NCBI GenBank assembly: GCA_013140455.1
Contig: JABFSU010000001.1
Span: 1 to 50,753, forward strand
Source of the DNA: Nitrospira sp.
Lineage (GTDB): Bacteria; Nitrospirota; Nitrospiria; Nitrospirales; Nitrospiraceae
DNA length: 50,753 bases
Direction: 5' to 3'
In this document: positions 13,441 to 37,482 of the stretch, piece after piece
Position numbering within the stretch: the first letter of the stretch is position 1
How the letters are laid out: every line of letters begins with the position of its first letter
Notes under the pieces: model-generated
What the model saw: the letters and a program-made list of their open reading frames with translations, nothing else
The model's database searches: none
What the model was told of the DNA's origin: nothing
Program-made: the position numbers and the translations under genes

Positions 13441-14703
13441 ATGGAATCAAAAAAGCTCTCTGCAGTACAACTTGAGCAGGCGTTGCGGGAAAAGACTCGC
13501 GAAGTGGATGTGCTGCACAGGATTAGCGAGTCGATCAGTAACACGCTCGATCTTGAGGCCGTGCTTCGGCACATTGTGGATGTTGTGGTCGAGGTGACGA
13601 AAGCGGATGCCTGCCTCCTCTATCTGTTGTCTGATGGCCGGGACGAATTGATCCTTCGGGCATCGAAAAACCCTCATCCTCGCCTAATCGGTCGCATTAC
13701 GATAGGTCTGGGTGAAGGTATCACCGGCTGGGTGGCTCGTGAGCGGACTCGCGTGGTCATTCCAAACAATGCCAGTGAGGATCCTCGATTTAAGTTCTTC
13801 AATAATCTTCCTGAGGATCGGTATCAGGCCTTTGTGTCCGTGCCGATTCTTGCGAAGAAGGAAGTCAGTGGCGTTATTAATGTGCAGCATAAGCGCTCTC
13901 GCCGCTATCGAGAAGATGAACTGGCCTTGCTCACGACGATCGCCAATCAGGTGGGCGGTGCGATAGAAAATGCGCGTATATACGACCAAATGCGTCGAAA
14001 GGCGCTCCAGTTGGAGACCTTGTCGCAGGTTTCCGAGACAGTCGCCTCCAACCGGATTACCGATGATGTGTTGCAGCTCATTGTGACCATGACGGCGCAG
14101 ATGTTGGGGTCCAAAATCTGTTCGATCATGCTGCTGGACGAAGCCAGCGGGGAACTGAGGATTGCGGCCACACAAAGTCTGAGCGAAGAGTACCGGCGAA
14201 AACCCAACCTCAAAGTCGGGCAGAGCATCAGCGGTCGGGCCGTCCAGGAGCGACGGTCGATCATTGTTCCCGAGGTGATGAAAGAGCGGGACTATATGTA
14301 TCCGGACATGGCGGCGAAGGAGGGGCTCTGTTCCTTGCTGTCGGTGCCGATGATGATGCGGGAGAAGTGCGTGGGAGTGATCAATAGCTACACGTCGGTT
14401 CCCCATACCTTTACGTCGGAAGAAGTGCGGCTGATGCAGGCCATCGCCAATCAGGCAGCGATCTCAATCGAGCACACCACCTTGTTGGAAAAATCGTTTG
14501 AGATGCAGGAGGCCCTGGCTGTGCGGAAGTTACTGGATCGCGCGAAGGGATATCTTATGCGATCCAAGAGGCTGTCGGAAGAGGAGGCCTTCAAGCTTAT
14601 CCAGCGGCAGAGCATGGATTTACGGAAATCTATGAGAGAGATCGCCGAGGCCATTCTTCTCGCAGGGGAAATCGACGGTCGAGCGAGTGACTTAAGGAAA
14701 TAA
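13441..14703 (+). CDS. GAF-GAF-ANTAR antitermination regulator
   Basis: The 420-residue soluble protein has two GAF sensor domains (about 25-178, starting LHRISESISNTLDLEAVL, and about 193-350, starting TLSQVSETVASNRITDDVL) and a C-terminal ANTAR RNA-binding domain (about 358-408: KLLDRAKGYLMRSKRLSEEEAF, then LIQRQSMDLRKSMREIAEAIL). ANTAR domains bind paired hexaloop hairpins in leader RNAs and prevent terminator folding. NasR of Klebsiella uses a NIT domain for nitrate and EutV a receiver; here GAF domains take the sensor place, and their ligand is unknown. Four hexaloop/terminator leaders lie downstream of this gene at 18.4, 28.0, 28.2 and 32.0 kb, all before nitrogen genes, which makes this protein their likely regulator. 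The link is inference. The gene follows aroB by 49 bases. Confidence 0.9.
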   Translation: MESKKLSAVQLEQALREKTREVDVLHRISESISNTLDLEAVLRHIVDVVVEVTKADACLLYLLSDGRDELILRASKNPHPRLIGRITIGLGEGITGWVARERTRVVIPNNASEDPRFKFFNNLPEDRYQAFVSVPILAKKEVSGVINVQHKRSRRYREDELALLTTIANQVGGAIENARIYDQMRRKALQLETLSQVSETVASNRITDDVLQLIVTMTAQMLGSKICSIMLLDEASGELRIAATQSLSEEYRRKPNLKVGQSISGRAVQERRSIIVPEVMKERDYMYPDMAAKEGLCSLLSVPMMMREKCVGVINSYTSVPHTFTSEEVRLMQAIANQAAISIEHTTLLEKSFEMQEALAVRKLLDRAKGYLMRSKRLSEEEAFKLIQRQSMDLRKSMREIAEAILLAGEIDGRASDLRK

Positions 14704-18393: not shown

Positions 18394-18405
18394 GCTCGAT
18401 CGTTT

Positions 18406-18509
18406 AGAGGGACAACGACGTTCCTCTGACGGCCGATTCAAGTGTATGGCAAGGACAATGACGTCCTCCGGCCTCTTTTAAAGAAAGAGGCCAGAGGACG
18501 TTTTTTTTT
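18406..18509 (+). ncRNA. ANTAR-type two-hexaloop attenuator leader A
   Basis: P1 (18406-18427): an 8-bp stem (one G-U) AGAGGGAC/GTTCCTCT closing the six-base loop AACGAC. P2 (18452-18467): stem AGGAC/GTCCT closing AATGAC. Both loops have A at position 1 and G at position 4, the ANTAR recognition rule, and are 24 bases apart. Terminator: arms 18461-18478 and 18484-18501, 18 positions with one mismatch, then nine Ts. The 3' half of P2 lies inside the first terminator arm, so P2 and the terminator exclude each other. It precedes the small lipoprotein gene at 18620 and, behind it, the porin-amtB-glnK-glnD-glnA run. Structure is read directly; regulation is inferred from NasR/EutV. Confidence 0.85.
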
Positions 18510-18619
18510 ACCTTGTGCGAACACGAGCGAGTCACCATGAAGCGGATGAATCCAACCAGGGAAAAGGTACTGGGAAATGGGATTAAGAATGGTAGCGCTC
18601 GTTCTAACAGGAGGGGATC

Positions 18620-18970: not shown

Positions 18971-19049
18971 GACCGGCTAAATGTAGGGGTTATGCGGTGT
19001 GAATCGGTGCAAGGCTTGAGAGTCGTGTGGTCCGGAAGGGGCGAGAGGA

Positions 19050-28004: not shown

Positions 28005-28021
28005 TCGGCCATGAGCTGATT

Positions 28022-28110
28022 GAGGCAAAGGCGCCTCGGTTGGGGCTCTCGACATAAGGCAACGGACAAAGGCGTCCGTCATTCTGGAAAGAATGGCGGA
28101 CGCCTTTTTA
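28022..28110 (+). ncRNA. ANTAR-type two-hexaloop attenuator leader B1
   Basis: P1 (28022-28037): GAGGC/GCCTC closing hexaloop AAAGGC. P2 (28062-28079): ACGGAC/GTCCGT closing an identical AAAGGC loop. Both loops have A1 and G4; the spacing is 24 bases, as in leader A. The terminator has an 18-position stem (28068-28085 with 28090-28107, one G-U), a GGAA loop and five Ts. The loop and 3' strand of P2 are the first terminator strand, so the two folds are mutually exclusive. A second attenuator follows 13 bases later. Together they control the ABC transporter operon starting at 28292. Confidence 0.87.
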
Positions 28111-28122
28111 ATTTCTGAGCCA

Positions 28123-28237
28123 GTGAGGCTTCTTCGTCGAAGCCTCGCACGTAAAGGCAGGTCGTGGCAGACCTGTCGTGAGGTGGACAAAGGCGTCCCT
28201 TCTCCCGCGAGGGAGGGGGACGCCTTTTGTGTTTTTG
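28123..28237 (+). ncRNA. Second tandem attenuator leader B2, upstream hairpin atypical
   Basis: P2 (28185-28198): GGAC/GTCC closing AAAGGC, the same loop as in B1. The terminator uses 28189-28206 and 28211-28227 (GGCGTCCC with GGGACGCC plus CTCCC/GGGAG) and is followed by TTTTGTGTTTTT. Two hairpins lie upstream: 28123-28148 with hexaloop TTCGTC, and 28158-28175 (CAGGTC/GACCTG) with hexaloop GTGGCA. Both have G at loop position 4 but lack A at position 1, so P1 is either degenerate or specific for something else. Two attenuators in series give two gates before the same operon. Confidence 0.72.
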
Positions 28238-28291: not shown

Positions 28292-29623
28292 ATGACAGTG
28301 ATGGGGAACGGCAATGTAGGTGCAGGAAAGAACGGGGATGAGCCGGAGGCCTCGCGGGAATCCAGTCCGCCTCATTTCAATACGGCCATTGAGCGCGCGG
28401 TAGCCGGAGCAGTCCTGCATGCCGCGGATCCAACCAGGCGTCGACTGCTCGCACAGCTTGGGGCCGTAGCGCTGACGGCATTCATCGCCGACGTGTTTCC
28501 GCTCGCTCGGCTGGTCGCCTTCGCGGAAGAGTCCGGCGGGAAACCGGAAAAGAAAGATCTGAGCATCGGCTTCATTCCGATCACCTGCGCCACGCCGATC
28601 ATCATGGCGGAACCGCTGGGGTTCTATAAGAAGTATGGTCTGAATGCGTCGGTCAAACGAGCGGCCGGATGGGCGATGATCAGAGATTGGGCGATCAACG
28701 GGGAAGTCGATGCGGCACATATGCTGACGCCAATGCCATTGGCGATTACGATGGGCGTCGGATCGGTCCCTAAGCCGTTCTACATGCCGACCGTCGAAAA
28801 TATCAATGGGCAGGCCATTACCCTGCATATCAAGCACAAGAATGTGAAGACCGCTGCCGATATGAAAGGTTTTCGATTCTGTGTCCCATTCGATTTTTCG
28901 ATGCACAACTATCTCCTTCGGTACTACTTGGCTGAAGGAGGCGTGCATCCCGATAAAGACGTCCAGATTCGTGTGGTCCCGCCGCCCGAAATGGTGGCTA
29001 ATTTGAAGGCCGGTAACGTCGATGGATATCTGGCTCCCGATCCCTTTAACCAACGGGCGGTCTACGAAAACGCGGGATTCATTTTTAAGCTTTCCAAGGA
29101 GATCTGGGACCGGCATCCCTGTTGCGCCTTCACGGTGTCGCAGGAGTTCGCGACCAAGTATCCGAACACATTTCATGCACTGTTCAGAGCGATTGTGGAT
29201 GCGACGCACTATGCGTCCGATCCGGCGCATCGCAAAGAAATCGCCGCCGCGATCGCTCCGACGAATTACCTGAATCAGCCGGTCACGGTGCTCGAACAGG
29301 TCTTGACGGGCACCTATGCCGACGGGCTCGGGAGTATCAAGAAGGAGCCGAGCCGGATCGACTTCGATCCTTATCCGTGGCACTCCATGGCGATCTGGAT
29401 TCTCACCCAAATGAAGCGCTGGGGGCATCTGAAGGGCGAGGTGAATTACAAGTCGGTGGCCGAACAAGTGTATCGGGCGGCAGACTGTGACCGTATCGCA
29501 AAGGAGTTGGGGTATCCGACGCATCAGGCGACGACGATGAAGCACGTCATTATGGGAAAGGAGTTCGATCCTTCCAATCCTGAGGCCTATGTAAAGGGAT
29601 TCCCAATCCACAGCATGGCATGA
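28292..29623 (+). CDS. ABC transporter substrate-binding protein, NrtA/CmpA family (cyanate/nitrite/nitrate type)
   Basis: The 443-residue protein carries a long N-region with a Tat-like signal (TRRRLLAQLGAVALTAFIAD, about 49-68), then a periplasmic binding domain of the NrtA/CmpA/CynA family: LSIGFIPITCATPIIMAEPLGFYKKYGL, HMLTPMPLAITMGVGS and FRFCVPFDFSMHNYLLRYYLAEGG. Family members bind nitrate, nitrite, bicarbonate or cyanate. The cyanase gene at the end of the operon points to cyanate, and nirC/nirA next door make nitrite possible. ATG at 28292 after AAGGGGTG. It is the first gene behind the double attenuator. Confidence 0.85.
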   Translation: MTVMGNGNVGAGKNGDEPEASRESSPPHFNTAIERAVAGAVLHAADPTRRRLLAQLGAVALTAFIADVFPLARLVAFAEESGGKPEKKDLSIGFIPITCATPIIMAEPLGFYKKYGLNASVKRAAGWAMIRDWAINGEVDAAHMLTPMPLAITMGVGSVPKPFYMPTVENINGQAITLHIKHKNVKTAADMKGFRFCVPFDFSMHNYLLRYYLAEGGVHPDKDVQIRVVPPPEMVANLKAGNVDGYLAPDPFNQRAVYENAGFIFKLSKEIWDRHPCCAFTVSQEFATKYPNTFHALFRAIVDATHYASDPAHRKEIAAAIAPTNYLNQPVTVLEQVLTGTYADGLGSIKKEPSRIDFDPYPWHSMAIWILTQMKRWGHLKGEVNYKSVAEQVYRAADCDRIAKELGYPTHQATTMKHVIMGKEFDPSNPEAYVKGFPIHSMA

Positions 29624-29636
29624 AGGGGGTCATCAC

Positions 29637-30629
29637 ATGGAGGTCGGCATGTCTGCTGAGACGGTAGTGTCGGAAGATCCGCCGGTGGATAACGAAACAG
29701 GAAGCTCTCGGTCTGCACGGAAGCCAACAAAGGGCAGGATGATGGTCGGTCAAGCGGCAGATAGTCCGTGGATGATCACGGTGTTTCTGGCGGTTCTCTT
29801 TCTGCTCGGATGGCATCTGGCAACCCTGAGGGGGGCGTTCGATGGGACAGGGTTGACCGAAGAACAATTGCAGATGATGGAATTCAACGGAGACATCGTT
29901 CGCGCTCCGGACGGAACCTACCTCTGGAACCCGGAGAAGGAAAAGGTAAAGGGGATTCCCGGTCCCCTCGCGGTCATGGAAAAAGCTCGGGAAGAACTCA
30001 GCGACGCCTTTGTGATAAAGGGCACCAACGATCATGGGATCGGCTACCTCGTGTTCTATACGGTCTCACGATTCGGAGCAGGCTTTCTGGCCGCGTCCGC
30101 GGTAGCGGTCGTCTTGGGTGTCTTCCTGGGGCTCAACAAGGTTCTCTTCAAGGCCGTGAACCCGTTCATCCAGATCTTGAAACCGATTTCGCCGCTGGCC
30201 TGGATGCCGCTCCTGTTGTATACCGTCAAAGATCCGAAATGGACAGCGATCCTGGTGGTCTTCATGGCGGCGCTCTGGCCGACGCTGGCGACGACGGCGT
30301 TCGGGGTCAATTCGCTACGGAAAGACTATTTGCACGTGGCGGCCATTCTCCAGCTCTCCTGGCCCAAGCGCCTCTTCAAGGTCATTCTTCCCGGCGCGGC
30401 TCCGACGATCGTCAACGGACTGCGCATTTCGTTCGGGAGTGCCCTGGTGGCGGTGGTGCCGGCAGAGATGCTGCTGGGCGAGTTGGGGGTCGGGTATTTG
30501 AGCTGGATCGAGTGGAATAACCTGGACATTTCCGGCGTCATCTTCGCCATTCTCGTCGTCGGCTGTGTCGGCGTCATCTTGGACTCAGGGTTCAATAAGT
30601 TGGCCGGGCTCGTCACCTATCAGGAGTAA
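29637..30629 (+). CDS. ABC transporter permease, NrtB/CynB family
   Basis: This is the membrane subunit of the anion importer. It has 330 residues. A first membrane segment (about 42-60) is followed by a hydrophilic loop of about 80 residues, then five or more segments. The EAA-type coupling loop is AAILQLSWPKRLFKVILPGAAPTIVNGLRISFG. The ATG at 29637 follows AAGGGGG at good spacing; ATG at 29649 after GGAGG is the alternative. It sits between the binding protein and the ATPase with short gaps. Confidence 0.88.
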   Translation: MEVGMSAETVVSEDPPVDNETGSSRSARKPTKGRMMVGQAADSPWMITVFLAVLFLLGWHLATLRGAFDGTGLTEEQLQMMEFNGDIVRAPDGTYLWNPEKEKVKGIPGPLAVMEKAREELSDAFVIKGTNDHGIGYLVFYTVSRFGAGFLAASAVAVVLGVFLGLNKVLFKAVNPFIQILKPISPLAWMPLLLYTVKDPKWTAILVVFMAALWPTLATTAFGVNSLRKDYLHVAAILQLSWPKRLFKVILPGAAPTIVNGLRISFGSALVAVVPAEMLLGELGVGYLSWIEWNNLDISGVIFAILVVGCVGVILDSGFNKLAGLVTYQE

Positions 30630-30632
30630 CCC

Positions 30633-31484
30633 ATGCCATATCTGCAAATTGATCATGCCAGCAAGTCGTTCCCCAGCCATACGGGGGAGGGACAGGTGTG
30701 TATCTTCAACGACGTCACGATCAAGATTGAACAAGGCGAATTTGTCACCGTCATCGGGCATTCGGGCTGCGGCAAGAGCACGCTGCTGAACATCATCGCG
30801 GGGTTGGACACGGCGTCCGAAGGGGGCGTCATCCTGGAGGGGAAAGAGGTAGTGGGGCCGGGGCTCGATCGGATGGTGGTGTTTCAAAACTTTTCGTTGA
30901 TGCCGTGGATGACGGTGTTTGAGAACATTGCGTTGGCGGTCCGGTCGGCGTATCCGGATTGGAGCCAGACCCAGGTCGCGGATCATGTGAACAAGTATAT
31001 CGCGCTGGTCGGGCTCAAGGGCGCGGAGACGAAACGTCCGACGGCCTTATCCGGCGGAATGAAGCAACGGGTCGGTCTGGCGCGCGCGTTCTCGATCGAA
31101 CCGAAAGTGCTGTTGCTGGATGAGCCCTTTGCACAGATCGATGCGCTGACGAGGGGGGTCATTCAGGAGGAGTTGATCCAGATGTGGAATGCCTCACGGA
31201 ATACCGTGTTCATGGTCACTCATGATGTGGATGAAGCTATTTTGTTGTCCGACCGCATCCTGTTAATGACGAACGGCCCCTCGGCGCGTGTCGGCGAGAT
31301 CGTCGAGGTCTCGATCCCCCGGCCACGCTCGCGCGAATCCATCATCGAACATCCGCACTACTACAAGATCCGCAACCATGTCATTCACTTTCTCGTTCGC
31401 CATGCGGCGCATGTCGGGCGCGGGAGCGGAGAGTCCGGTGCCGGCAGGAGCGGAGACGCACCGGTGCTGGTGAGGTTTTCGTGA
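30633..31484 (+). CDS. ABC transporter ATP-binding protein, NrtD/CynD family
   Basis: This is the ATPase subunit of the anion importer. Visible are Walker A GHSGCGKST, the Q-loop MVVFQNFSLMPWMTVFENI, signature LSGGMKQRVGLARA, Walker B VLLLDEPFAQIDALT, and the H-loop VTHDVDEAILLSDRI. It has 283 residues; the C-terminal 35 residues are a Gly/Ala/Arg-rich tail. There is no NrtC-type fused sensor domain. The ATG at 30633 is three bases after the permease stop. cynS follows after 62 bases. Confidence 0.92.
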   Translation: MPYLQIDHASKSFPSHTGEGQVCIFNDVTIKIEQGEFVTVIGHSGCGKSTLLNIIAGLDTASEGGVILEGKEVVGPGLDRMVVFQNFSLMPWMTVFENIALAVRSAYPDWSQTQVADHVNKYIALVGLKGAETKRPTALSGGMKQRVGLARAFSIEPKVLLLDEPFAQIDALTRGVIQEELIQMWNASRNTVFMVTHDVDEAILLSDRILLMTNGPSARVGEIVEVSIPRPRSRESIIEHPHYYKIRNHVIHFLVRHAAHVGRGSGESGAGRSGDAPVLVRFS

Positions 31485-31546
31485 CAGATTCAGAAGAAGG
31501 AGCCGCAGCACAAGCGGGTCCCGCACAAACCAGAAGGAGGAACGAG

Positions 31547-31987
31547 ATGGAAAAGGACGAGATTCGGAAGGCGATCAAGGCGAAGCGGTTGGCCAAGAAG
31601 GTGACGATTGCCGAGGTCGCCAAAACAGTGGGCAAGAATCCGACTTTTGTCGCGGCGGCGTTGAACGGAAATCATAAATTCACAGCCGATGAAGCCAAAA
31701 AAATCGGCGACTTGATCGGCCTTGATGCCGAGCTGACCGCGTCGCTCAGCAAGTTTCCGGTGCGCGCGGATTTCCCCAATGCCACAGACCCCTTCAAGTA
31801 CCGCCTGTTGGAGATTATCGGAGTCTACGGGGATTCGTTGCGCGAACAAGCCAACGAAATGTTTGGCGACGGGATCATGAGTGCGATCGACTATACGATG
31901 GAGATGGAAAAGGTGACGGGCAGTCAGGGCGAGGCCCGGTGCAAGATTACGTTGAACGGGAAGTGGCTCGAATATAAGACGTTCTAG
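31547..31987 (+). CDS. cynS: Cyanate hydratase (cyanase)
   Basis: Cyanase converts cyanate and bicarbonate to ammonia and CO2. The N-terminal helical bundle (LAKKVTIAEVAKTVGKNPTFVAAALNG) resembles a DNA-binding fold, and the C-terminal catalytic domain contains the active-site Arg and Glu in FKYRLLEIIGVYG and the Ser in GIMSAIDY. It has 146 residues, the typical length. The ATG at 31547 after AAGGAGG is clearly the start, although the frame is open from 31481. The gene completes a cynABDS-like operon that supplies ammonium from cyanate to the GlnA pathway upstream. Confidence 0.96.
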   Translation: MEKDEIRKAIKAKRLAKKVTIAEVAKTVGKNPTFVAAALNGNHKFTADEAKKIGDLIGLDAELTASLSKFPVRADFPNATDPFKYRLLEIIGVYGDSLREQANEMFGDGIMSAIDYTMEMEKVTGSQGEARCKITLNGKWLEYKTF

Positions 31988-32011: not shown

Positions 32012-32110
32012 GCGGGAACAACGACGTTCCTGCCTGGTCGAAACAGCGAGCGCTGGAAAGCGGACAATGGCGTCCGTCTCCTATTCGGGAAGACGGGCGC
32101 CATTGTGCGT
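32012..32110 (+). ncRNA. ANTAR-type two-hexaloop attenuator leader C
   Basis: P1 (32012-32033): 8-bp stem GCGGGAAC/GTTCCTGC (one G-U) closing AACGAC, the same loop as P1 of leader A. P2 (32061-32076): CGGAC/GTCCG closing AATGGC. Both loops have A1 and G4 and are 26-27 bases apart. The terminator-like stem joins 32066-32081 with 32088-32104 (one wobble, one bulge); the T-tract after it is weak (GTGCGTTT). P2 overlaps the first strand as in the other leaders. It lies between cynS and the nirC-type gene, 31 bases before the latter's ribosome-binding site. A possible promoter (TTGAAC-N15-TATAAG, 31952-31978) lies inside cynS. Confidence 0.8.
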
Positions 32111-32141
32111 TTATGATTCAGTGACGATCAAGGAGGAGTCG

Positions 32142-32969
32142 ATGTATACGGCGGACCATGAGCGGATTGCATCGTTGGCTGCGAAGAAACATCGGTTCCT
32201 GGAAATCTCGCTGTTGCGCTACCTCATACTCGCGGCTCTGGCGGGAGTCTATGTGGGATTCGGCATCGCGTTGATTTTCAGCCTCGGCGGGCCGTTGGCC
32301 GGGTCAGGATCGCCGATGCTGAAGCTGGTGATGGGTGTGTCTTTCGGGATCGCCCTGACGCTGGTGATCTTCGCCGGATCGGAATTGTTTACCGGCAATA
32401 ACATGACCGGAGTCATTGGCGGGCTGTCGGGCAGCCTCACCTGGGGTCAAGTGGTGCAGCTCAACGTCTGGTCCTGGTTCGGCAACCTCGTCGGCTCACT
32501 GGCGCTGGCCTGGTTGGTCGTCCAATCTGGCGTCCTGTCCAAGGGCCCGCAGGCCGATCTGATTGGAAATGTGGCGGCCATGAAGATGGCGCTGCCGGCA
32601 TGGGAGCTGTTCCTCCGTGGTCTACTGTGTAATTGGCTCGTCTGCCTGGCGGTCTGGACATCCGGGCGGACGACGAACGATGCGGCCAAGATCATGCTGA
32701 TCTTCTGGTGCCTGTTCGCCTTCATCGGCACCGGATTCGAGCATAGCGTCGCCAATCAATCGTTCCTCGGCATGGCGCTGTTTCTGCCCCATGGGGACGT
32801 CGTCAGTTGGACGGGCTACTGGTACAACCAGTTCTACGTCGTATTAGGAAACATCGTCGGTGGCGGGCTGTTCGTCGGCGGGCTGTATTGGCTCGCGAGT
32901 CCCTATACCATCGCCGGTATTGAGCCAAGGGAATTGCCGCAGGTCGTTCCGGCAAGGGAGGCCTGCTGA
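32142..32969 (+). CDS. nirC: Formate/nitrite transporter (FNT) family channel, NirC-like
   Basis: The 275-residue membrane protein has six hydrophobic segments. FNT motifs include LAALAGVYVGFGIALIFSLGG, FAGSELFTGNNM, and FCLFAFIGTGFEHSVANQS (the segment around the central His). The ATG at 32142 follows AAGGAGGAG; the upstream open frame contains leader C and is not coding. Sequence alone does not separate nitrite from formate channels. Lying before nirA and after a nitrogen-type attenuator, nitrite import for assimilation is the best reading. Confidence 0.85.
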   Translation: MYTADHERIASLAAKKHRFLEISLLRYLILAALAGVYVGFGIALIFSLGGPLAGSGSPMLKLVMGVSFGIALTLVIFAGSELFTGNNMTGVIGGLSGSLTWGQVVQLNVWSWFGNLVGSLALAWLVVQSGVLSKGPQADLIGNVAAMKMALPAWELFLRGLLCNWLVCLAVWTSGRTTNDAAKIMLIFWCLFAFIGTGFEHSVANQSFLGMALFLPHGDVVSWTGYWYNQFYVVLGNIVGGGLFVGGLYWLASPYTIAGIEPRELPQVVPAREAC

Positions 32970-32999
32970 ATCCAAGATTCAAAAAGAGGGGAGGACGCC

Positions 33000-33218
33000 A
33001 TGGCGAATTCACATGATCGTGCTGCCATCTCGAATGAGAATAGTGTGATACAACGGCTGCGTGAATGCGGCGCGAGCTCATTCGAAGATCTGGCCCGACT
33101 GTCCGGACTGGACTGGGTCACGGTGTTCTCAGTTGTCGATCGGCTCAATCGTACAGGCCTCGTGGTGCTCACACGAACCGGGGCCGATTACCGTGTGTCA
33201 TTGGAGAAGGGAACATGA
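33000..33218 (+). CDS. Small winged-helix protein coupled to nirA
   Basis: The 72-residue protein is a single helix-turn-helix/winged-helix unit: VIQRLRECGASSFEDLARLSGLDWVTVFSVVDRLNRTGLVVLTRTGADYRVSLEKG. It has no sensor domain. The ATG at 33000 follows GGGGAGG. Its stop overlaps the nirA start (ATGA at 33215), so it is made with the reductase. It could be a local repressor or a protein-interaction module. I recognise the fold but not the family. Confidence 0.75.
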   Translation: MANSHDRAAISNENSVIQRLRECGASSFEDLARLSGLDWVTVFSVVDRLNRTGLVVLTRTGADYRVSLEKGT

Positions 33219-34777
33219 ACAAAATCGAGGTCATCAAGACGGAGCGCGACGGGTTGGCGGTGAAGGAGATGATTGCCCAGTACGCCAAAACGGGATGGGA
33301 GTCGATCCCTGAGGCCGATATCCAGCGGCTCAAGTGGTATGGCCTCTTTCTGCGCAATCCAACGCCCGGGTTCTTCATGGTGCGGGTGCGGATTCCCGGG
33401 GGACAGACCACATCGTACCAATTGCGGGCCCTGGCCGAGATCGCCTCGACCTATGGCAATGGAGTCCTGGATTTGACCACCAGACAACAAGTCCAACTCC
33501 GGAATATCAAGATCGAAGACGTGCCGGCGGTCTTTGTTCGGATGGACGGGGTCGGACTGACCTCCATGCAAACCGGCATGGACAATGTCCGCAACGTCAT
33601 GACCTGTGCCATCTCCGGCTTCAACCCGGATGAGGTCGTCGAGACCACGGCGCTGGTACGGGCGATCAACGAAGAGATTCTCGGCAACCCGGCCTACTCC
33701 AATCTGCCGCGGAAGCTGAATGTGGCGGTGACCGGCTGCCCGCATAACTGCGTGCATATGGAAACACAAGACCTTGCGCTCGTGCCGGCGCACTATGATC
33801 TGGGACATGACCGTTGTGCGGGATTCAATGTGCTCGTGGGTGGCAAGCTGGGATCGGGCGGGTATCGGATCGCCACGCCGCTGGAGGTGTTCGTCAATCC
33901 GTCCGAGGCGTTGGCTGTGTGCCGCGCGATTCTGGAAATCTACCGCGATCACGGGCCGCGGGAGAGTCGCACACAGGCCCGTCTCGCGTTCTTGATCGAG
34001 GAATGGGGCGAGGCCAGATTCCGCGCCGAAGTCGAGGCGCGTGTGGGCAAACGGCTCGCGTCGGCCGGAATGGATGCCCGGAAAACGGGAGAGCAAGACC
34101 ATGTCGGGATCTTCCGTCAACGGCAACAGGGGATGAACTACGCGGGGCTGAAAGTGCTGGTCGGGCGGGTCAAAGCGGCAGACCTTGTGAAGATTCTGAA
34201 TCTCTCGGAAAAATACGGGAACGGAGAGATCCGTATTACGCCGAGCCAGGCGTTGATCATTCCCAATATCAGCGACCGAACCGTCGGGGATCTGGCGGAT
34301 GAGCCGCTGTTGAAGCAATTCGCCTACAACCCCTCGGCCTTATACAAAGGACTGGTCAGCTGTGTCGGCAGCGACTACTGTAATCTGGCGGTGATCGAAA
34401 GCAAGGGGCGGGCGGTCGCGGTGGCCAAGGTGTTGGAGGAACGGCTGGGCAGCGCGCTTAAGCCGATTACGATGCACTGGTCCGGTTGTCCGGCCAGTTG
34501 CGGCAACCACCTGGTGGCCGATGTGGGGTTATTGGGGAAAAAGGTCAAAATCGAGGGAAAGGTCGTTGAGGCGGTTGATATTTATGTCGGCGGCCGCTCG
34601 GGTCCTGACCCGAAGCTGGCGGTGAAGATCATGGAAGACGTGCCCTGCGAAAAACTTCCGGCAGTACTCGAAGGCCTGCTGCCCTATCACACACGGGAGA
34701 AAATGCACCGTGTCCGCGGCGGTGGAGCCCGGAAAGTGCTGACGGGAAAAGAAGTGAATATTTCGCCTGCGGCGTAG
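33215..34777 (+). CDS. nirA: Ferredoxin-nitrite reductase, assimilatory (siroheme/4Fe-4S)
   Basis: NirA reduces nitrite to ammonium with six electrons. It has 520 residues and two repeated nitrite/sulfite reductase halves. The siroheme/4Fe-4S ligands are Cys383 and Cys389 (SCVGSDYC) and Cys425 and Cys429 (GCPASC). The substrate region shows LTTRQQVQLRNIKIEDVPAVF and AVTGCPHNCVH. The start at 33215, ATG overlapping the upstream stop, removes a spurious 50-codon extension. Sulfite reductase is the main alternative; the nirC-type neighbour and attenuator favour nitrite. Electron donor genes are not in the window. Confidence 0.9.
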   Translation: MNKIEVIKTERDGLAVKEMIAQYAKTGWESIPEADIQRLKWYGLFLRNPTPGFFMVRVRIPGGQTTSYQLRALAEIASTYGNGVLDLTTRQQVQLRNIKIEDVPAVFVRMDGVGLTSMQTGMDNVRNVMTCAISGFNPDEVVETTALVRAINEEILGNPAYSNLPRKLNVAVTGCPHNCVHMETQDLALVPAHYDLGHDRCAGFNVLVGGKLGSGGYRIATPLEVFVNPSEALAVCRAILEIYRDHGPRESRTQARLAFLIEEWGEARFRAEVEARVGKRLASAGMDARKTGEQDHVGIFRQRQQGMNYAGLKVLVGRVKAADLVKILNLSEKYGNGEIRITPSQALIIPNISDRTVGDLADEPLLKQFAYNPSALYKGLVSCVGSDYCNLAVIESKGRAVAVAKVLEERLGSALKPITMHWSGCPASCGNHLVADVGLLGKKVKIEGKVVEAVDIYVGGRSGPDPKLAVKIMEDVPCEKLPAVLEGLLPYHTREKMHRVRGGGARKVLTGKEVNISPAA

Positions 34778-34839: not shown

Positions 34840-35610
34840 ATGCCAAAACGAGTTCGTACGGGCTTAACGCGCAGCGATATTCTCGATCGTTATATTGACC
34901 GCGTCAAACAGATGCTGGTGAAGTTCCAGCCGTTTCTCTCGCGCAAACGAGGGACCGCTTCTCTGGAAGACTTTGACGAGGCCGCCGAGGATCTGATCGG
35001 ACAGGTGTTCGGCGCCGCCTCCGAGGAAGCCGAAGCCTACTTCTATGCCAAGAGCGGGGAGTCGATCATGCTCCCGGAAGAGGCTCAGGAGAGCGGCATG
35101 CATGACGTGGAGCGGGAAACGCTCCAGCAGCGCCGCCAAGTGCTTGCCAGTTGTCTGGCCGATCTGGAGTTGCGCCGCCGGGTGCAGGCGACACGGGAGA
35201 GCAGCCTCAACGGCAAGAAGCGAGTACGCGCCACGGTGGAGACCTATATGTCGCACGACGTGCGGAGCATCCACCGGGCGGCGACGGTGAAGGAAGCCGG
35301 GAAGCTGTTACTCAAGCATAAGGTGGGGTCGTTGATGGTGGATGACGGTTCCCGCTACATCGGGATCATCACCGATGCAGACCTCAGCCGGAAAGTCGTC
35401 GCGAAGGGACTCGATCCCAATACGACCACGGTGTCGGCCTGCATGAGCAAATCGTTCGTCACGATCGAGGAAGACGAGCCCCTGTCTGAGGCGATGGCGT
35501 TGATGAAGAAACAGGGGATCCGGCATTTGCCGGTGAGTGCAGACGGCACGGTCATCGGCGTGCTGTCCGTATCTGACTTAGTGCGCGCATTCCAGGACGC
35601 CACGCCGTAA
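34840..35610 (+). CDS. CBS-domain-pair protein
   Basis: The 256-residue soluble protein has a helical N-terminal half of no known family (about 1-120) and two CBS domains (about 130-190 and 198-254) with VETYMSHDVRSIHRAATVKEAGKLLLKHKVGSLMV and TDADLSRKVV, then ACMSKSFVTIEEDEPLSEAMALMKKQGIRHLPV. CBS pairs usually bind adenine nucleotides. It starts 62 bases after nirA (ATG after AGGAGG) and is two bases from the histidine kinase gene, so it may report energy state to that system. That role is inference. Confidence 0.88.
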   Translation: MPKRVRTGLTRSDILDRYIDRVKQMLVKFQPFLSRKRGTASLEDFDEAAEDLIGQVFGAASEEAEAYFYAKSGESIMLPEEAQESGMHDVERETLQQRRQVLASCLADLELRRRVQATRESSLNGKKRVRATVETYMSHDVRSIHRAATVKEAGKLLLKHKVGSLMVDDGSRYIGIITDADLSRKVVAKGLDPNTTTVSACMSKSFVTIEEDEPLSEAMALMKKQGIRHLPVSADGTVIGVLSVSDLVRAFQDATP

Positions 35611-35612
35611 CC

Positions 35613-36803
35613 TTGAAGAACAGATCAAGACAACTGACGCGAAAGACGGAAAGAGGTTCTCGGCTTGCCGGCGGCACAGAGTTGAAGAAACCGCGCAGAG
35701 GGAAGGGGCAGGCCATCCAATCGACACGCGGGGGAGTGGCTCACCGTCTCGTCGAACGGGTGAAAGAGCTCAGTGCCCTGCATCGCGCCGTTCGCGTCAT
35801 GCAGGACAACGTCAAACCGGTATCGAAGGTGTTGCGTGAGATCGTCTCGCTGATTCCCCCTGCGTGGCAATATCCCGAGGTGACGGAAGCCTGCCTGACG
35901 GTTGACGGGATGCGTTTTCCTACCGCTGGTTTTAGAAAGACTCCTTGGGCACAACGGGCTGAATTTACGACTTCCGATGGACGCCAAGGGAAGCTTGAGG
36001 TGGTGTATAGGGAGAAGCGTCCGCCGGAAAGCGAAGGGCCGTTTCTCGCAGAGGAGCGGCATCTGATCAATTCGTTGGCCGACAGCTGTGCCTCCTATTT
36101 GACCCGAAGACGGGCGGAAGAGGAACTGGTGGTGGCCCATGGACGGCTGCAAGCGCTGTCCAAGCAGTCGATGCGGCTGCAGGAGCAAGAGCGGCGACAG
36201 TTGGCGCGGGATCTGCACGATGAAATCGGTCAAGCCTTTACGACGCTCAAAGTGAATTTGCAAACGATTCAGAGAACCACAGACCCGAAACGCAAGACCG
36301 CCTCTCTCAACGACAGTTTTATGATCATCGACCAGACGGTCGCGCGCGTGCGCGACATGGCGCTCGATTTACGCCCTTCAATGCTGGATGACTTCGGGTT
36401 GGCCTCTGCCGTGCGGTGGTACGTCGGCAAACAGGGTGAGCGGGCCGGGATTCGGACAAAGGTCGATTCCGTGGCCATCCCTCATGGATTATCTCCCGAT
36501 GCGCTGGTAGCCTGCTTTAGGATTGTCCAGGAAGGAGTGACCAATATTTTGAGGCACGCCAAGGCGAGCCGGATGGCGGTCACGCTTCGGCCACTGAAAA
36601 AAGGAGTCAAATTGGTCATCGAAGACGATGGCATCGGTTTTTCCCCCAACGAGGCGCTGCGGGCATCCGGTGAACGGTCGCATTTGGGATTAATCGGAAT
36701 GCAAGAACGAATCAGGACTTTTAACGGACAGCTCCAGATCAGTTCAGAAAAGCGGAAGGGCACCAAGCTGTCTGCGATGATCCCGTTCGACGAGGCCGTT
36801 TGA
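35613..36803 (+). CDS. Soluble histidine kinase, NarX/DesK-type (HisKA_3)
   Basis: The 396-residue kinase has no membrane segments. A GAF-like region (about 45-165, ALHRAVRVMQDN to LADSCASYLTRR) precedes the dimerisation helix with the phospho-acceptor His in ARDLHDEIGQAF (about 202) and the HATPase domain (about 290-393) with FRIVQEGVTNILRHAKA, DDGIGF and GLIGMQERI. The start is uncertain: TTG at 35613 has no good ribosome-binding site, and a GTG after GGGGGA lies further in. The response regulator gene follows after 16 bases. The input signal is unknown. Confidence 0.88.
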   Translation: MKNRSRQLTRKTERGSRLAGGTELKKPRRGKGQAIQSTRGGVAHRLVERVKELSALHRAVRVMQDNVKPVSKVLREIVSLIPPAWQYPEVTEACLTVDGMRFPTAGFRKTPWAQRAEFTTSDGRQGKLEVVYREKRPPESEGPFLAEERHLINSLADSCASYLTRRRAEEELVVAHGRLQALSKQSMRLQEQERRQLARDLHDEIGQAFTTLKVNLQTIQRTTDPKRKTASLNDSFMIIDQTVARVRDMALDLRPSMLDDFGLASAVRWYVGKQGERAGIRTKVDSVAIPHGLSPDALVACFRIVQEGVTNILRHAKASRMAVTLRPLKKGVKLVIEDDGIGFSPNEALRASGERSHLGLIGMQERIRTFNGQLQISSEKRKGTKLSAMIPFDEAV

Positions 36804-36819
36804 AGAGGAGAGGGGCAGG

Positions 36820-37482
36820 ATGCGAGCCACGTCAAAGACGATACGGGTTCTGTTGGCCGACGATCACGCGCTCTTTCGAGCCGGACTTCGTGCGCTGCTC
36901 CAGAGTTTTGATGGGGTGCAGGTGGTTGCCGAAGCCGGCAACGGGCCTGACGCGATTCAGCTGGTAGAACGAGATCGACCCAACCTGGTGTTGATGGACA
37001 TCGCGCTCCCCGGTCCCTCGGGCCTCGAGGCAGCTGCCCGCATCACCACAGCGTGGCCACAGGTGCGAGTCATCATCCTCTCCATGCATTCCAACGAAGA
37101 ATATGTCCGCCAAGCGCTCCGGGCCGGTGCCTCCGGGTACCTCTTGAAAGGAGCCGAGCCGCCAGAATTGGAGCTGGCCCTCAAGGCGGTCATGCGAGGA
37201 GAGACCTACCTGACGCCCAGTGTGTCCAAGAAAGTGGTGGACGAGTATCTCAGGCAGGGGACCGCGCAAAACAAAGGTGTGGCGTTATCTCCGCGGCAGT
37301 GTGAAGTGCTGAAGTTGATCGCCGAAGGCGGTTCCACGAAGGAAATTGCCGGCAAGCTCGATCTGAGTGTCAAGACGGTAGAAGGGCACCGCGCCGAATT
37401 GATGAGGCGATTGGAGATTCACGATGTCGCAGGGCTCGTCCGCTATGCGATTCGCATCGGTCTGGTCGCGGTAGATTCCTAA
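36820..37482 (+). CDS. Response regulator, NarL/FixJ family
   Basis: The 220-residue regulator has a receiver domain (about 8-125) with acidic DDH near the start, the phosphorylated Asp60 in VLMDIALPGPSG and Lys in YLLKGAEPPE, then a LuxR-type HTH (about 153-210, LSPRQCEVLKLIAEGGSTKEIAGKLDLSVKTVEGHRAELMRRL). The ATG at 36820 follows GAGAGGGGCAGG. It is the partner of the kinase directly upstream. A 17-base palindrome at 37524 just after the gene is a possible binding site. Confidence 0.93.
   Translation: MRATSKTIRVLLADDHALFRAGLRALLQSFDGVQVVAEAGNGPDAIQLVERDRPNLVLMDIALPGPSGLEAAARITTAWPQVRVIILSMHSNEEYVRQALRAGASGYLLKGAEPPELELALKAVMRGETYLTPSVSKKVVDEYLRQGTAQNKGVALSPRQCEVLKLIAEGGSTKEIAGKLDLSVKTVEGHRAELMRRLEIHDVAGLVRYAIRIGLVAVDS

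Follow-up and report, generated by a model that had tools for sequence, protein, structure and literature searches.

A conserved, probable ANTAR antitermination leader between glnA and nitrite and cyanate uptake genes in Nitrospira

The region downstream of glnA in this Nitrospira genome holds a real, conserved ANTAR antitermination leader, here called B1, which by its structure, conservation, covariation, genomic context and co-occurrence with an ANTAR gene is a member of the known dual-hexaloop antiterminators. We consider it very likely (a probability of roughly 90%) that B1 acts in cis as a transcription attenuator controlled by a GAF-GAF-ANTAR protein encoded in the same gene cluster, a reading for which we infer the start site, protein binding, antitermination and signal. 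The type of switch is known, and its regulon in Nitrospira is new relative to the literature searched, in which we found no report of antitermination control of nitrogen assimilation in this genus; antitermination goes unmentioned where its nitrogen cluster has been described (PMC5767232). Nitrospira are major nitrite oxidisers, including comammox organisms, and the present analysis points to a single ANTAR protein that, across much of the family, would govern ammonium uptake, PII/GlnD/GlnA, nitrite reduction and the uptake of nitrite and cyanate. Coordinates (Table 1) refer to the window, that is, the whole stretch of 50,753 nucleotides that was analysed.

Table 1. Coordinates of B1, B2, the other leaders and the associated genes in the window. 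R1 is the covariance model described in the text.
Feature	Position	Strand	Support or context
GAF-GAF-ANTAR protein, proposed regulator	13441–14703	+	Pfam; 13 kb upstream of B1
Leader A, dual hexaloop AACGAC/AATGAC and terminator	18404–18510	+	R1 57.0 bits; before lipoprotein-porin-amt-amt-PII-glnD-glnA
Promoter-like TTGACG-18 nt-TACAAA with a TG one base 5′ of the -10, past the glnA stop and ahead of P1	27975–28004	+	Conservation
B1 P1 hairpin, hexaloop AAAGGC at 28027–28032	28016–28043 (core stem 28022–28037)	+	Compensatory changes; R1 75.9 bits
B1 P2 hairpin (antiterminator form), hexaloop AAAGGC at 28068–28073	28062–28079	+	GGAC-loop-GTCC invariant in 19/19 aligned leaders
B1 18-pair intrinsic terminator with GGAA loop and U-rich tail	28068–28114	+	Pairing in 100% of cells, 10 genomes
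B2 hairpin, hexaloop TTCGTC (T1, G4)	28123–28148	+	Conserved hairpin
B2 hairpin, hexaloop GTGGCA (G1, G4), 7 nt before second P2	28156–28177	+	Possible atypical P1
B2 second P2, GGAC-AAAGGC-GTCC	28185–28198	+	R1 16.5 bits
B2 second terminator, overlapping second P2	28189–28236	+	Fold, relatives
Proposed regulated operon: NrtABC-like ABC transporter (28292, 29637, 30633) and cyanase cynS (31481)	28292–31987	+	
Leader C, dual hexaloop AACGAC/AATGGC and terminator	32012–32115	+	R1 63.9 bits; between cynS and nirC-nirA
nirC-like FNT transporter and nirA-like ferredoxin-nitrite reductase	32142–34777	+	

Anatomy and conservation of B1

Both direct reading and a script recover, at 28022–28110, the two hairpins with identical AAAGGC hexaloops described in the original prediction, and the remaining details of that description hold as well: P1 and P2 are separated by 24 nt from core to core (28038–28061), or by 18 nt if the extended P1 stem is counted, and the 18-pair terminator with its GGAA loop comprises 17 Watson–Crick pairs and one G-U pair. 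Its 5′ arm opens with base 1 of the P2 loop and runs on through the P2 3′ arm, which makes the terminator and P2 mutually exclusive, as had been claimed. The core arms of P1 are GAGGC (28022–28026) and GCCTC (28033–28037), from which G-U pairing lengthens the stem to its full extent, and those of P2 are ACGGAC and GTCCGT. The terminator arms (28068–28085 and 28090–28107) are followed by TTAATTT, and the short U-tract after the terminator reads TTTTTAATTT. Given calculated energies of −8.8 kcal/mol for P2 alone and −31.4 kcal/mol for the terminator, the terminator wins unless something aids P2; folds of the nascent RNA at growing lengths, which are thermodynamic only, pass from P1 to P2 and then to a terminator that displaces P2 once its 3′ arm has been made. 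The B1 fold as a whole has a z-score of −5.6, with none of 200 shuffles equally stable.

With 40 first-order simulated strands defining the expectation, 0.1 strict-stem dual A1/G4 hexaloops are expected per strand, and the window holds two on the + strand and none on the − strand; when an overlapping terminator is also demanded, the count is still two, against 0.0 in the simulations. A scan that tolerates G-U pairs finds three strong-stem pairs on the + strand (18404, 28016 and 32012) and none on the − strand. Between the glnA stop and P1, the elements TTGACG and TG-n-TA are nearly invariant at near-fixed spacing in 10 genomes, while the remaining intergenic region diverges, a pattern which suggests that the leader likely has its own promoter just upstream of P1.

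B1 orthologues occur in 13 Nitrospira genomes, nearly all with the same 35-nt distance from loop to loop. The original prediction had staked itself on conserved stems, on A1 and G4, and on compensatory changes among related genomes, and it survives this comparison: both loops keep A1 and G4 in 13/13 orthologues, and P1 has undergone G-C/A-U and A-U/U-A exchanges. Across 19 aligned leaders, 96.2% of cells are paired, compared with 42–47% in slid controls, and 25 cells have changed on both sides, compared with 8.3 in shuffles; none of 500 shuffles attains the score. The C-G closing pair of each loop is invariant in all 19. P2 is itself invariant among the B1 orthologues of alignment A2 and, taken alone, shows no covariation there. 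P1 covaries again on a wider set of hits (43 double-sided cell changes versus 13 in shuffles, in an alignment fitted to the model).

The wider collection of 56 leaders further delimits what is fixed and what may vary. Position 4 of the P2 loop is G in every one; since position 1 is G in seven of them and A in the other 49, A1 is a preference and not a rule, and G at position 4 is the constant element. Loop-to-loop distances are mostly 32–46 nt, which corresponds to linkers of about 20–35 nt with short stems. An overlapping terminator, a feature that lies outside the covariance model, accompanies 52 of the 56, compared with 38 of 400 random sites (9.5%), as scored by an energy-based test; a simple ungapped scorer misses bulged terminators.

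The ANTAR gene, the cluster and their distribution

The proposed regulator is the only ANTAR protein of the genome. Pfam finds two GAF domains and an ANTAR domain in it and nothing else: neither a NIT nitrate/nitrite-sensing domain, which sets it apart from the NasR type, nor a receiver or pseudo-receiver before the ANTAR domain, which sets it apart from the NasT/EutV type. This domain order fits one-component GAF-ANTAR proteins. The ANTAR domain is related to the Rv1626, EutV and NasR structures, and an aromatic Phe in it aligns with Tyr164 of EutV, the RNA-stacking residue that stacks on G4 (PMC8934654); the N-terminal GAF domain most resembles those of PtsP and NifA. Elsewhere in the phylum, individual genomes (G364, G129 and others) encode two ANTAR proteins.

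From the ANTAR gene onward the cluster runs through NAD synthase, leader A, a small ORF, a BBP2 porin, two Amt transporters, P-II, glnD and glnA to B1 and B2, and then through the NrtABC-like transporter, cynS and leader C to the nirC-like FNT transporter and the nirA-like nitrite reductase. A covariance model, R1, built from P1 and P2 only with the terminator excluded, ranks B1, C and A well above B2 in the window (Table 1) and, across the whole genome, has exactly three matches, A, B1 and C, all in this cluster. Other R1 matches fall within coding sequence and have no support: one at 19046 (14.1 bits) is in the porin gene, and with those at 30766, 26086 and 33542 it was taken as chance. The terminator U-tract of leader C is weak in this genome (GCGTTTAT) and shorter than that of B1, and reads TTTTT in the relatives G014 and G050. 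Beyond nirA, at 34840–37482, stand a CBS-domain protein, a histidine kinase and a LuxR-type response regulator, conserved with nirA in several genomes. Where nrtABC is missing (G002, G011, G038, G039, G067, G068, G069 and G071), the leader directly precedes nirC and cynS, mostly with nirA; across genomes, the switch is constant and its cargo exchangeable.

Among 79 genomes of the genus, strong leaders are present in 14 of 14 with an ANTAR gene and in 2 of 65 without one (Fisher p ~1e-13, which overstates independence as the genomes are related); leader and ANTAR gene share one cluster, and joint gain or loss is possible. In G011, one of the two exceptions, the contig stops before the cluster reaches the site of the ANTAR gene; in the other, G019, there is a remnant of the gene with 65% identity over ~69 residues (residues 2–70) and two in-frame stops. 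The latter genome (G019:C50:27792-27977 and L088:12109-12172) retains a single leader-like RNA, which as judged by eye stands beside urease-accessory-like ORFs. Matches of 23–24 bits in the ANTAR-free G049 and G051 lack an overlapping terminator and were taken as chance. At the level of the family, 108 of the 175 genomes carry leaders, and so does every one of the 22 genera sampled; in named Nitrospira, including N. moscoviensis and Ca. N. defluvii, 53 leaders lie near ANTAR genes, 52 of them on the ANTAR strand. Loop conservation, P1 compensation, the lone ANTAR gene in the cluster and co-occurrence across the genus together uphold the initial reading of B1 as an ANTAR leader. In G038 and G039 there are additional leader hits (L032:14835-14896 and L036:15430-15492), flanked by the ANTAR gene on one side and the cluster on the other, with P1 loops that begin with G (GACGAA and GATGAA).

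Proposed mechanism, known relatives and rival readings

As the conserved promoter-like sequence suggests, transcription would start just after glnA. By default, P1 and then the 18-pair terminator would form, halting RNA polymerase ~100 nt into the leader. An active ANTAR protein would bind the P1 and P2 hexaloops, reading their G4 and first position on stems closed by C-G, and keep P2 folded; the folded P2 would in turn withhold the 5′ arm of the terminator, and polymerase could proceed into nrtABC-cynS and possibly nirC-nirA. Through leader A the same protein would also control the ammonium-transport/PII/glnD/glnA genes, and through leader C nirC-nirA. That the ANTAR protein overrides default termination is suggested by the anatomy and by analogy with EutV, NasR and NasT, for which this has been tested. 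What might the protein sense? General nitrogen shortage is a more probable cue than nitrite, since nitrite is the energy substrate, normally present, and since leader A would control ammonium transport and PII. One might guess at a nitrogen-status ligand, which would suit the PtsP/NifA-like GAF domain.

The eut leaders of Enterococcus faecalis, read by EutV/EutW, resemble B1 in having two A1/G4 hexaloop hairpins with conserved closing pairs, a P2 that excludes the terminator, and several leaders per regulon (PMC3369931, PMC8934654). They differ in their role (ethanolamine use rather than nitrogen assimilation), in their regulator (a phosphorylated receiver-ANTAR protein, EutV, rather than a one-component GAF-GAF-ANTAR protein) and in their linkers, which are 5–12 nt long against 24 or 18 nt in B1, depending on whether the core or the extended P1 stem is counted. 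In the current model a EutV dimer meets the two hexaloops in succession (PMC8934654), and the natural EutV linkers span the same 5–12 nt, with 14 nt drastically lowering induction (PMC3369931); curated actinobacterial ANTAR RNAs, by comparison, have linkers of 2–25 nt (PMC8164766), a range that takes in both B1 values. The length of the B1 linker, beyond what EutV tolerates, speaks against our reading, as do the short U-tracts of B1 and leader C. The nasF leader of Klebsiella, target of NasR, shares with B1 two hairpins, the C-G closing pair, A1/G4 loops and terminator overlap (PMC7496416), and a one-component ANTAR protein governing nitrate/nitrite assimilation is common to NasR and to our proposal for Nitrospira (PMC7496416). 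The C-G closing pair as a feature of such targets comes from SELEX with NasR (PMC7496416). NasR senses nitrate/nitrite by its NIT domain, which the Nitrospira protein lacks according to Pfam. The natural variants in Nitrospira, namely long linkers, G at position 1 and serial terminators, probe how much latitude ANTAR recognition allows.

We take P11 and NalA of Pseudomonas to be the same RNA. This is consistent with PMC12080996 and PMC12830290. The leader in question, that of nirBD and a NasT target (RF00625), shares with B1 the core GGACAAAGGCGUCC running into the terminator, and, like B1, it precedes nitrite assimilation genes; the covariance match extends over the full length of B1 at a sub-threshold score. 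Against the RF00625 (P11) gathering score of 70 bits, B1 reaches 35.4 and B2 24.6–28.1, which marks a related core only and not membership. The two further differ in promoter, sigma-54 at NalA (PMC3973561, PMC12830290) versus a sigma-70-like sequence at B1, and in regulator, the NasS/NasT pair versus the GAF-GAF-ANTAR protein.

This kinship bears on the idea that the short terminated RNA is what functions, either as a stand-alone sRNA with targets in trans, the role put forward for Pseudomonas P11, or as an ANTAR decoy. The P11 match over the whole leader is sub-threshold with an E-value of 2.6e-6, and P11 has been reported as an sRNA regulating the nirBD operon (PMC12080996), but the Pseudomonas NalA leader itself works in cis and is read through with the ANTAR protein NasT (PMC12830290), and in Nitrospira the placement before operons is conserved with no evident trans target. 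We therefore judge a trans product highly improbable as the main function; a side role of this kind would be compatible with attenuation in cis. The strong terminator some 75–130 nt past the glnA stop could, more simply, do no more than end the glnA operon as intrinsic terminators ordinarily do, with the hexaloops a by-product of its stem sequence. P1, however, lies outside the terminator and is nevertheless conserved, with compensatory changes and an invariant A1 and G4; a conserved promoter-like sequence separates glnA from P1, the dual motif is found again before two other operons, and the presence of the leader tracks the ANTAR gene. Because of the conserved P1 and the promoter-like sequence, a plain glnA terminator is insufficient as an explanation, and we hold it to be very unlikely.

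Control of the attenuator by something other than an ANTAR protein, whether a riboswitch or another RNA-binding protein, has in its favour a weak Rfam PyrR-site match in B2 (21.8 bits against a cut-off of 54, E 0.76) and the circumstance that we infer the ANTAR protein as the regulator of B1. The hexaloop rules are nevertheless those of ANTAR targets, the motif follows the ANTAR gene, and nothing in the window matches Rfam at gathering score, riboswitches included, so such control seems to us a very distant prospect compared with attenuation under the GAF-GAF-ANTAR protein.

A second module, B2, downstream of B1

Immediately beyond B1 lies a second module at 28123–28236, whose P2 and terminator are present in 11 of the 13 genomes with B1 and absent from G041 and G071. 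B2 has no canonical second P1: the TTCGTC and GTGGCA hairpins upstream of its P2, although conserved in nine genomes, lack A1, and they have changed too little for their pairing to be judged, with a single compensatory cell, a count equalled in 179 of 500 shuffles. B2 may act as a further gate in series with B1 or as a back-up to its terminator. There is precedent for several ANTAR sites in one transcription unit, as in Desulfotomaculum acetoxidans with 13 sites in six units (PMC3369931). A more elaborate picture, which we offer tentatively and regard as rather doubtful, is a two-step gate in which a single ANTAR protein has to overcome both terminators in turn, B2 obeys a variant rule (a lone A1/G4 hexaloop after a closely spaced G1/G4 hexaloop, or the hairpins of B1 reused), and the GAF-GAF-ANTAR protein senses nitrogen status directly, and not a nitrate, nitrite or phosphate signal. 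In G069 and G003 both upstream hairpins of B2 are replaced, and its P2 and terminator are kept.
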